DNA of 20,565 nucleotides, taken from the IMG/VR virus record IMGVR_UViG_3300008450_000593, positions 1-20,565 of that record; one strand, given 5' to 3'. This stretch comes from a virus. This document shows, one piece after another, positions 6,542-9,573 of this stretch; within the stretch, counting starts at the first letter, position 1; each line of letters opens with the position of its first letter. The notes under the pieces are model-generated. The model saw nothing but the letters and a program-made list of their open reading frames with translations, was not told where the DNA came from and did not search any database. The translations under genes were made by a program, and so were the position numbers.

Positions 6542-6802
6542 ATGATACAAATACAACCTTTAATCATTCCGACACAGGGCACAGCAGTTGCATTGATACT
6601 CAAGTGTCAGACACTTGACATGACGGCAACAACTGCCGACTTTTATTACGAGCTTATCACAGCAGGCACATACAACACACCGTACAAAGTTTTGGTATCA
6701 GGTGACATCTCAATGACTGAGGCGGAGTACAGCCAATGGGGAGCAGACAACACATATTGCATACAATGGGCTGCACAAAAGCTCGGCTTAACTTTAATCT
6801 AA
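6542..6802 (+). CDS. Small hypothetical protein downstream of the fibre
   Basis: An 86-residue protein with a beta-rich pattern ('AVALILKCQTLDMTATTADF', 'YYELITAGTYNTPYKVLVSG') and a C-terminal amphipathic helix ('EAEYSQWGADNTYCIQWAAQ'). There is no signal peptide or membrane segment. It starts 10 nt after the fibre stop, behind the A-rich leader AAAAAATAAACA, and its stop shares bases with the next start (TAATG). Its position suggests a small fibre-associated protein or chaperone, or the first gene of the lysis cluster. No family recognised. Confidence 0.6.
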   Translation: MIQIQPLIIPTQGTAVALILKCQTLDMTATTADFYYELITAGTYNTPYKVLVSGDISMTEAEYSQWGADNTYCIQWAAQKLGLTLI

Positions 6803-6972
6803 TGAAACAGCATTTTGACTTATTAGGGGTGTGGTTGCTATCTGTTGCAACATACCTGACATCATCTGAGGTGATTGGTTTTTTTGCAATTGCCGCGAGT
6901 GTCACAACCATCATCGGAAACATTCCGGGCATCATCAAATTTTTTAACAAATACATAAAAAATGAAAAGTAA
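6802..6972 (+). CDS. Small membrane protein, holin candidate
   Basis: A 56-residue protein, largely hydrophobic: 'LLGVWLLSVATYL' followed by 'VIGFFAIAASVTTIIGNIPG', then a charged tail 'KFFNKYIKNEK'. This fits two short or one long membrane segment with a basic C-terminus, as in small phage holins. It overlaps the next membrane protein by 11 nt and is followed within 2.3 kb by an endolysin lacking a signal sequence, which needs a holin for release. The ATG at 6802 overlaps the previous stop; the longer reading from 6736 lies inside the preceding gene. Holin identity is inferred from size, topology and position. Confidence 0.5.
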   Translation: MKQHFDLLGVWLLSVATYLTSSEVIGFFAIAASVTTIIGNIPGIIKFFNKYIKNEK

Positions 6973-7144
6973 CAAAACAACAATCTTCGGATTGATTTTG
7001 GCAACATTGGTGGCAATACAGCCAATCGTTGAGGGTACTGGTTATCATTTCGATGGTAACACTATTACTAAGGTTTTATTTGCTGCGTCATTGGCTGCAT
7101 TTGGTTATTTAGCCAAAGACTATGACACATCAGGTAAGCCATAA
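6962..7144 (+). CDS. Second small membrane protein, holin candidate
   Basis: A 60-residue protein with two predicted membrane segments: residues about 7-23 ('TIFGLILATLVAIQPIV') and 37-50 ('KVLFAASLAAFGYLAKD'), separated by a polar loop 'GTGYHFDGNTIT', with a polar C-terminus 'DYDTSGKP'. Two-segment proteins of this size upstream of an endolysin are typical of class II holins. Together with the gene before it this makes a pair that could be holin and antiholin, or two subunits. It overlaps the preceding gene by 11 nt. A hairpin that looks functional on the opposite strand lies immediately after its stop. Confidence 0.55.
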   Translation: MKSNKTTIFGLILATLVAIQPIVEGTGYHFDGNTITKVLFAASLAAFGYLAKDYDTSGKP

Positions 7145-7171
7145 AAAAAGGAGGCAGTAAAAACCGCCTCC
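7143..7171 (-). terminator. Rho-independent terminator reading leftward (minus strand)
   Basis: Read on the minus strand, a 9-bp stem (GGAGGCGGT with ACTGCCTCC, one G-U wobble) closes a TTTT loop and is followed by seven T residues. Read on the plus strand the wobble becomes an A-C mismatch and no T-run follows, so the element is built for leftward transcription. No leftward gene is apparent to its right. Confidence 0.65.
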
Positions 7172-7199
7172 GATCCCCCACAAACGAGTCCAATGTTTG
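7143..7199 (-). ncRNA. Candidate ~57-nt minus-strand RNA
   Basis: Inferred from a minus-strand promoter match at 7205-7235 and the minus-strand terminator at 7143-7171, with initiation expected near 7198-7200. The product would be a short 5' segment plus a terminator hairpin, antisense to the gap between the second holin candidate and the exonuclease gene. It has no convincing reading frame. It would be the only leftward transcript seen in the window. Ends are approximate and no conservation evidence is available. Confidence 0.3.
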
Positions 7200-7204
7200 C
7201 CCAA

Positions 7205-7235
7205 CAAATATAAGCAAATGCGCACACATCGCAAA
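7205..7235 (-). promoter_or_regulatory. Candidate Bacteroidetes promoter, minus strand
   Basis: On the minus strand the -7 element TATATTTG (plus 7205-7212) matches the Bacteroidetes consensus TAnnTTTG exactly. A TTTG (plus 7232-7235) lies 19 nt upstream as the -33 element. It overlaps the start codon of the rightward exonuclease gene. Roughly one such match per window this size could arise by chance in AT-rich DNA, so the adjacent terminator is what makes it credible. Confidence 0.35.
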
Positions 7236-7961
7236 AGATTATTTTTTGATATTGAGGTTGCGCCAAACATTGGTTTGTTTTGGGATGCAGGGTATAAAAA
7301 GAACATCAGCCCTGAGAGTATAATTAAGGAGCGAGCTATTATCTGCATTTGTTACAAGTTTGAGGATGATGAGGAGGTACAATGGTTGACATGGGATAAG
7401 CGGCAGAACGACAAAGCCATGCTTATTGACTTCATTAAGGTTGCCAATACAGCGGATGAGATTGTCGGGCATAACGGTGACAAATTTGACCTCGCATGGA
7501 TCAGGACGCGATGCCTGTTTCATGGCATCCCCATGTTTCCTAAATATGTGACTGTTGACACACTCAAAATCAGCCGGTCAATGTTTAAGTTTAACAGCAA
7601 CAAACTGGACTACATTGCTAAGTTTTTGAACATCGGCGGAAAGTCACACACTGAGTACAGCATGTGGAGTGACATACTTTTAGACAATGACCGCAAACAG
7701 CTCGACAGGATGGTTGACTATTGTATTAATGATGTCGCGATATTGGAGGCTGTATACAAAGCAATGTCAAATCATATTCCGCCAAAAACACATTTTGGTA
7801 TGAGATTTGGCGGATCAAAGGACAATTGCCCTGAGTGCGGCTCTGATTCCTTATTAAAAGATGGATTGACATATTTGGTTAGTGGCTCAGTAAAACAGAG
7901 ATACCAGTGCAAAACATGCCATAAATACTTTACAGCCAATGAGAAAAAAAATAAAAATTGA
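7218..7961 (+). CDS. DnaQ-like 3'-5' exonuclease with C-terminal zinc ribbon
   Basis: A 247-residue protein. Exonuclease motifs are all visible: Exo I FFDIE (D11, E13), Exo II GHNGDKFDLAW (D91) and Exo III YCINDVAIL (Y168, D172). This places it among DEDD 3'-5' exonucleases, closest in feel to YprB/ribonuclease-H-like forms found as free-standing phage nucleases. Residues 204-234 form a Cys4 zinc ribbon (CPEC at 204-207, CKTC at 231-234) resembling the nucleic-acid-binding ribbons of IS1-type InsA proteins. ATG 7218 is preferred over an in-frame TTG at 7197. It overlaps the next gene by 23 nt. Its place inside the lysis region is unexpected; host DNA turnover or recombination are possible roles. 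Confidence 0.8.
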   Translation: MRTHRKRLFFDIEVAPNIGLFWDAGYKKNISPESIIKERAIICICYKFEDDEEVQWLTWDKRQNDKAMLIDFIKVANTADEIVGHNGDKFDLAWIRTRCLFHGIPMFPKYVTVDTLKISRSMFKFNSNKLDYIAKFLNIGGKSHTEYSMWSDILLDNDRKQLDRMVDYCINDVAILEAVYKAMSNHIPPKTHFGMRFGGSKDNCPECGSDSLLKDGLTYLVSGSVKQRYQCKTCHKYFTANEKKNKN

Positions 7962-9276: not shown

Positions 9277-9306
9277 AGCCCGGTGTTTCTACATTGGGCT
9301 TTTTTA
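9277..9306 (+). terminator. Rho-independent terminator ending the lysis cluster
   Basis: A 10-bp stem (AGCCCGGTGT at 9277-9286 with ACATTGGGCT at 9291-9300, two G-T wobbles) has a TTCT loop and is followed by a T-run. It lies 30 nt after the endolysin stop and marks the boundary between late and early regions. Confidence 0.85.
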
Positions 9307-9542: not shown

Positions 9543-9573
9543 TTTGGAAAATAGAATTGAGGTTGTATCTTTG
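9543..9573 (+). promoter_or_regulatory. Bacteroidetes-type promoter for the early region
   Basis: TTTG at 9543-9546 and TATCTTTG at 9566-9573 match the -33 TTTG and -7 TAnnTTTG consensus, with a 19-nt spacer. Transcription should start near 9580, giving a short A-rich, unstructured leader to the ATG at 9613. It is the clearest promoter in the window and points to host sigma-ABfr-type recognition, as expected for early expression. Confidence 0.75.

Follow-up and report, generated by a model that had tools for sequence, protein, structure and literature searches.

Does a phage whose larger genes all point in one direction also make a small RNA from the opposite strand, and, if so, which of its genes might that RNA serve? 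The question is raised by a short intergenic locus in the window analyzed here, which is a stretch of 20,565 nt of viral DNA (IMG/VR record IMGVR_UViG_3300008450_000593, positions 1 to 20,565; one strand). Judging from the signals described below, the phage very probably makes one RNA of ~58 bases from the opposite strand, directly behind two small genes for holin-like membrane proteins that we call genes A and B (Table 1).

Table 1. Features of the window at and around the candidate antisense unit.
Feature	Position	Strand	Location	Evidence or remark
Gene A, 56-aa hydrophobic (holin-like) protein	6802..6972	(+)		No family match
Gene B, 60-aa protein with two hydrophobic segments	6962..7144	(+)		Weak holin matches only
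Predicted 58-nt antisense RNA	7143..7200	(-)	Space from gene B to the start region of the next gene	Start placed from the -7 box
Intrinsic terminator: 9-bp hairpin (7171-7150) and U7 (7149-7143)	7143..7171	(-)		Covariation, minus-strand G-U bias
-7 box TATATTTG (consensus TANNTTTG)	7205..7212	(-)		Box in all 22 hairpin-bearing loci, N positions variable
DNA polymerase exonuclease subunit gene	7218..7961	(+)		phrog_403, E 9e-57
-33 box TTTG	7232..7235	(-)	Within the exonuclease coding sequence	Read from the sequence

A candidate leftward transcription unit

An earlier note on this DNA had described a tiny minus-strand unit in an otherwise all-plus genome, with a -7/-33 promoter, a strong leftward terminator ending in U7 some 35-50 nt downstream, and an RNA of about 57 nt. 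These elements were all found again. The window has 17 ORFs of at least 120 aa on the plus strand and 0 on the minus strand, and the leftward promoter lies at the positions given in Table 1, with 19 nt between TTTG and the -7 box on the minus strand. The window thereby has both parts of a Bacteroidota primary sigma promoter, namely a TANNTTTG -7 box and a TTTG/TTG near -33. The predicted start at 7200 was set by placing the -7 box at -12 to -5, where it has been mapped in Flavobacterium psychrophilum (PMC9723704), and the resulting length is 58 nt. The terminator hairpin, GGAGGCGGU-UUUU-ACUGCCUCC on the minus strand, has the G+C-rich stem and following U-tract of an intrinsic terminator; counted from the end of the -7 box, the stem lies at a distance of 33 nt and the U-tract at 55 nt. 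The U-tract overlaps the stop codon of gene B (7142-7144). The segment 7201-7143 folded with -21.2 kcal/mol (z -3.9). As far as sequence evidence goes, the arrangement is that of a phage cis-antisense RNA, which lies opposite a sense message and has a promoter and a terminator of its own. Rfam covariance models gave 0 matches at 7143-7200, and a weak match to MicC elsewhere was far under the gathering score.

The combination is rare. We searched for TTG-N18..22-TANNTTTG followed by a terminator 25-110 nt further on, and this joint pattern occurred once in the window compared to a mean of 0.005 per shuffle (200 dinucleotide shuffles, both strands). Among related loci totaling ~1.03 Mb (not de-duplicated), no site other than this one had the minus-strand pattern with a -33 box. 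A chance match is ruled out by the shuffle expectation, by the scan of relatives and by the co-occurrence of the signals described in the next section. The strand context of related genomes is similar: in six relatives (G001-G004, G008, and G009), as in the window, every ORF of at least 120 aa lies on one strand, and ORFs of that size occur on both strands in G005 and G006. A scan for antisense terminators returned exactly one per genome, at this site, in the window, G001, G002, G003, and G008; in G004 and G009, the genomes of loci L093 and L091, a mismatch makes the strict stem rule miss the terminator.

The hairpin also bears on the question of strand. Across relatives, 98.3% of cells were paired, two-sided changes were seen at 6 of the 9 pairs, and the covariation score was reached by 0 of 500 shuffles. 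The G-U pair of the window stem, which had been taken as a sign that the hairpin evolved for leftward RNA, is indeed an A-C mismatch on the plus strand (-16.9 kcal/mol on the minus strand vs -12.5), and the argument extends to relatives, as 12 of 15 distinct hairpins fold better, with G-U pairs, on the minus strand. For two others (L091 and L093) the plus-strand fold is the better one, and one is even (sign test 0.006, kinship uncorrected). This strand preference bears on a reading that we consider very improbable, in which a plus-strand leader structure controls the next gene and the antisense signals are by-products. The plus strand of the window at 7143-7285 does fold well (z -4.7) and pairing of leader and start codon is predicted in L122-L124, but the long pairing does not hold generally, being weak in L001 (z -0.5), and the hairpins, 12 of 15 of which pair worse on the plus strand, have no U-tract on that side. 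A general leader switch over the start codon was rejected on the same grounds, being strong in the window only. We noted that, on the plus strand of the window (7177-7284), leader positions 7177-7199 can pair with exonuclease codons at 7261-7284, leaving the start codon in the loop.

Conservation of the unit and its genomic company

To place the unit among relatives, 34 loci with relatives of the 60-aa gene B were inspected, the window included. The -7 box TANNTTTG and the leftward hairpin were present jointly in 22 of these loci, and both were missing in the other 12. In the 22 unit loci, the hairpin follows gene B, and CAAANNTA (the minus-strand TANNTTTG) stands just ahead of the next start codon. 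An automatic test of the same 34 loci counted both signals in 21 and neither in 12; one locus was scored as having the -7 box alone and 0 as having the terminator alone (Fisher p 2e-8 for co-occurrence, kinship uncorrected). The locus scored as -7 box alone, L092 (the same contig as L004), does have the hairpin, but with a weak U-tract. The finding named beforehand as one that would speak against the unit, a hairpin kept in relatives that had lost the promoter, occurred in 0 of the 34 loci, and the joint retention of promoter and hairpin supports the notion of a small, self-contained leftward unit.

The two promoter elements differ in constancy. The N positions of the -7 box vary by group (TATATTTG, TACATTTG, TATTTTTG, and TAATTTTG). 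The -33 TTG is less constant than the -7 box. It lies 17-23 nt away from that box in the window, L001, L003, L004, L086, L089-L091, L093, L011, L121, L122, L124, and L125; the L081 group and L123 have none at the right distance. In Flavobacterium johnsoniae, no -33 motif was identifiable (PMC7366714).

The co-occurrence also bears on the possibility, in our view quite improbable, that the hairpin is a leftward terminator insulating the late operon from stray antisense transcription, with the -7 box being incidental or part of the translation context of the next gene. In its favor, A-rich stretches like CAAANNTA do occur at such places; CAAANNTA is present in the 32 nt preceding only 5.5% of 1015 ORF starts (unit loci counted in). 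However, the box accompanies the hairpin in 22 loci and is missing from the 12 hairpin-less ones, where the same kinds of next gene occur without it. With this background frequency and these box-less genes, the -7 box as an artefact of translation context is disfavored.

The genes on the two sides of the unit behave differently. Downstream, the next gene is the exonuclease in the window, L001, L003, and L004, a spanin-like lipoprotein gene in the L081 group, the L086 group, L091, L093, and L121-L125, and a gene for a 41-aa basic protein in L011; in every relative, its start region carries the leftward promoter. The suggestion that the RNA tunes the exonuclease is not supported, because most relatives carry the unit before another gene, and the exonuclease was rejected as partner gene for that reason. 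Spanin-like (L094 and L051) and 41-aa basic (L098 and L120) next genes also occur without the unit.

Upstream, the unit is present in every one of the 21 viral contigs in which a relative of gene A was found, and loci without the unit have other small membrane-type genes in place of gene A. In the gene B tree, a branch (support 80/88; a short protein with many open forks) separates the unit carriers from the rest, and on the endolysin tree carriers and non-carriers are interleaved. Because of the gene A contigs, the replacement of gene A, and the two trees, A, B, and the unit appear to move as one cassette while the lysis genes behind them recombine. The unit looks like a single origin retained by descent, rather than a repeated independent association, and the linkage to A-B may therefore be partly descent. 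In L094, L051, L095, L098, and L120, which lack the unit, the place of gene A upstream of gene B is taken by a gene for a protein of 68-69 aa that has a single hydrophobic segment at its N terminus and ends in a charged, coiled-coil-like tail.

The proposed connection with lysis is plausible. In its favor, the unit is linked to the two small upstream genes for hydrophobic proteins, and the cassette around it also encodes a spanin-like lipoprotein and an endolysin. Against it, neither the gene A nor the gene B protein has a significant holin-family profile match: the best holin-type PHROG matches of the small proteins were to holin (E 0.17) and holin/anti-holin (E 0.21). That genes A and B encode holins is our guess from their size, hydrophobic segments, and spanin-like and endolysin neighbors. 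No gene B was found in genome_contigs or among INPHARED phages. In the flavobacterial phage tooticki6-1, a holin-family gene (Pfam PF05105) and an amidase gene lie at the end of the record and an exonuclease gene at its start.

How the unit might act

Across relatives the promoter, the RNA length (~50-73 nt) and the terminator are kept, and the body of the RNA is not. Between close relatives the body evolves about as fast as gene B does at synonymous sites: the window and L001 differ at 11 of 30 body positions compared to 9 of 18 fourfold sites, and 20 of 37 compared to 6 of 17 between L003 and L004. The L122-L125 group, in which the body is under more constraint, departs from this. We found no evident seed common to the RNA bodies of different groups, and duplexes with other phage gene starts were no better than those of shuffled bodies in 7 of 8 genomes (G006, z -2.8), so that a conserved seed or a phage trans target was dismissed. 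A short peptide was also dismissed; a 14-codon frame from ATG to stop exists in L122, L123, and L125, an indel breaks it in L121 and L124, and the RNA of the window has no ATG.

These observations weigh on the idea of a trans-acting small RNA directed at phage or host messages. A discrete, structured RNA with its own promoter and terminator, the fairly conserved body within L122-L125, and a 5' hairpin specific to the window would suit that idea, but the lack of a common seed, the near-synonymous rate of change elsewhere, and the duplex results make it improbable. Signals that are kept, a body that drifts, and no shared trans target among phage gene starts favor action on the opposite strand, or through transcription, over a trans small RNA.

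Our best explanation, which we put forward tentatively, is that the unit may be a cis-acting antisense module of the holin-like gene pair. Transcription initiated by the host primary sigma factor would begin within the start region of the gene following B and run leftward for ~50-73 nt, to the terminator on or beside B's stop codon. Such an RNA would be fully complementary to the A-B message from B's stop codon to the start region of the next gene. Pairing with the sense message would then lead to cleavage by a double-strand RNase and destabilization of the 3' end, as with OOP on cII, and collision of leftward and rightward polymerases would perhaps help. Expression across the A-B junction would be held down or delayed, so that the small membrane proteins, the products of the lysis genes behind them, or both would be made late; the direction of the effect, repression or delay, is one that we infer by analogy. 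A drifting body and no trans target are expected of such a module, because the opposite strand supplies complementarity for free. The rarity of the joint pattern, the co-occurrence, the covariation, the G-U bias, the single antisense terminator, and the linkage to A-B all count for the cis-antisense module. Antisense RNAs of about this size, known from phages (PMC12197685) and from Bacteroides (PMC7366714), count for it too. Counting against it are the overlap with gene B, which is limited to the stop codon, and the next start codon, which is not reached, as well as the plus-strand folding of L091 and L093, the absent holin profile match, and the single origin.

A possible but rather doubtful reading is that transcription is itself the function, with polymerase at or leaving the leftward promoter blocking rightward polymerase at the junction of B and the next gene, and the terminator merely keeping the by-product short and outside gene B. 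The retention of promoter, spacing, and terminator but not of the RNA body is in line with this, as is a promoter on the next gene's start region in every relative. Interference usually needs a strong or slow promoter, however, and the L081 group lacks the -33 box; moreover, a terminator right at the stop codon is equally compatible with use of the RNA. A related conjecture, which we think unlikely, is a timer for the lysis cassette, in which a promoter-terminator module is fixed to the holin-like gene pair: the act of antisense transcription, rather than the RNA sequence, would be selected, polymerase collision would restrain the late message, and the next gene could be freely swapped. RNA pairing and polymerase collision cannot be separated by sequence alone.

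Relation to known antisense RNAs and other signals

The functional kind to which the unit would belong, the phage cis-antisense RNA, is known. OOP of lambda overlaps the coding sequence of its target, and sar of P22 lies between arc and ant and blocks ant translation. OOP is a 77 nt RNA from pO, antisense to cII; it resembles the unit in being short and leftward within a rightward operon and in having a promoter and a terminator to itself, and it acts in cis on the message it overlaps (PMC12197685). Here, in contrast, the stop codon alone is overlapped, the sequence is unrelated, and the unit has holin-like and lysis genes as neighbors. The sar RNA (68/69 nt) is of similar size and is likewise a phage antisense RNA acting on a neighboring message, in this case in the control of ant (PMC12197685), whereas here 18 nt lie between the RNA and the next start codon, and the unit keeps to the upstream genes. 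In phage PAK_P4, the antisense RNA PAK_P4as15 shares the lysis context and has been proposed to delay lysis, but it is ~550 nt long and lies opposite the endolysin gene (PMC12197685). The DonS-type RNAs of Bacteroides are Bacteroidota cis-antisense small RNAs that repress a neighboring gene; they are longer (78-128 nt), chromosomal and non-phage, and belong to host polysaccharide loci with susC homologues (PMC7366714).

In the literature available as open-licence full texts, we found no such unit and no antisense control of a lysis cassette in Bacteroidota phages, and this kind of RNA is apparently undescribed in them. Lysis timing in Bacteroidota phages has been little explored. As a short and clearly delimited element that is retained in 22 related environmental phage loci and can be separated from coding function, the unit lends itself to a simple direct test. 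With signals kept and a drifting body, it would also be a clean example of how cis-antisense action or interference can be told from trans small RNAs on sequence grounds.

Two further sets of signals were observed. On the plus strand of the window, a good rightward Bacteroidota-type promoter lies at 9543-9573 (TTTG-19 nt-TATCTTTG, -7 box from 9566), after the terminator of the endolysin operon (9277-9300), and apparently heads the next operon. In a neighboring phage group, two rightward terminators stand in tandem where an operon ends (L040:4490-4680, L080:8590-8740, L079:3910-4070, and L022:2060-2250); the first unit is also present in L024, L029, L032, L041, L045, L054, and L071, and the second in L076. 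Mostly, each of these terminators follows a TANNTTTG-like box and a CATAG motif that recurs (e.g., TTCATAGTTGGTTTC and CATAGACAAATGGTTTACG), and the units may represent either tiny sense RNAs or a double terminator that is conserved.
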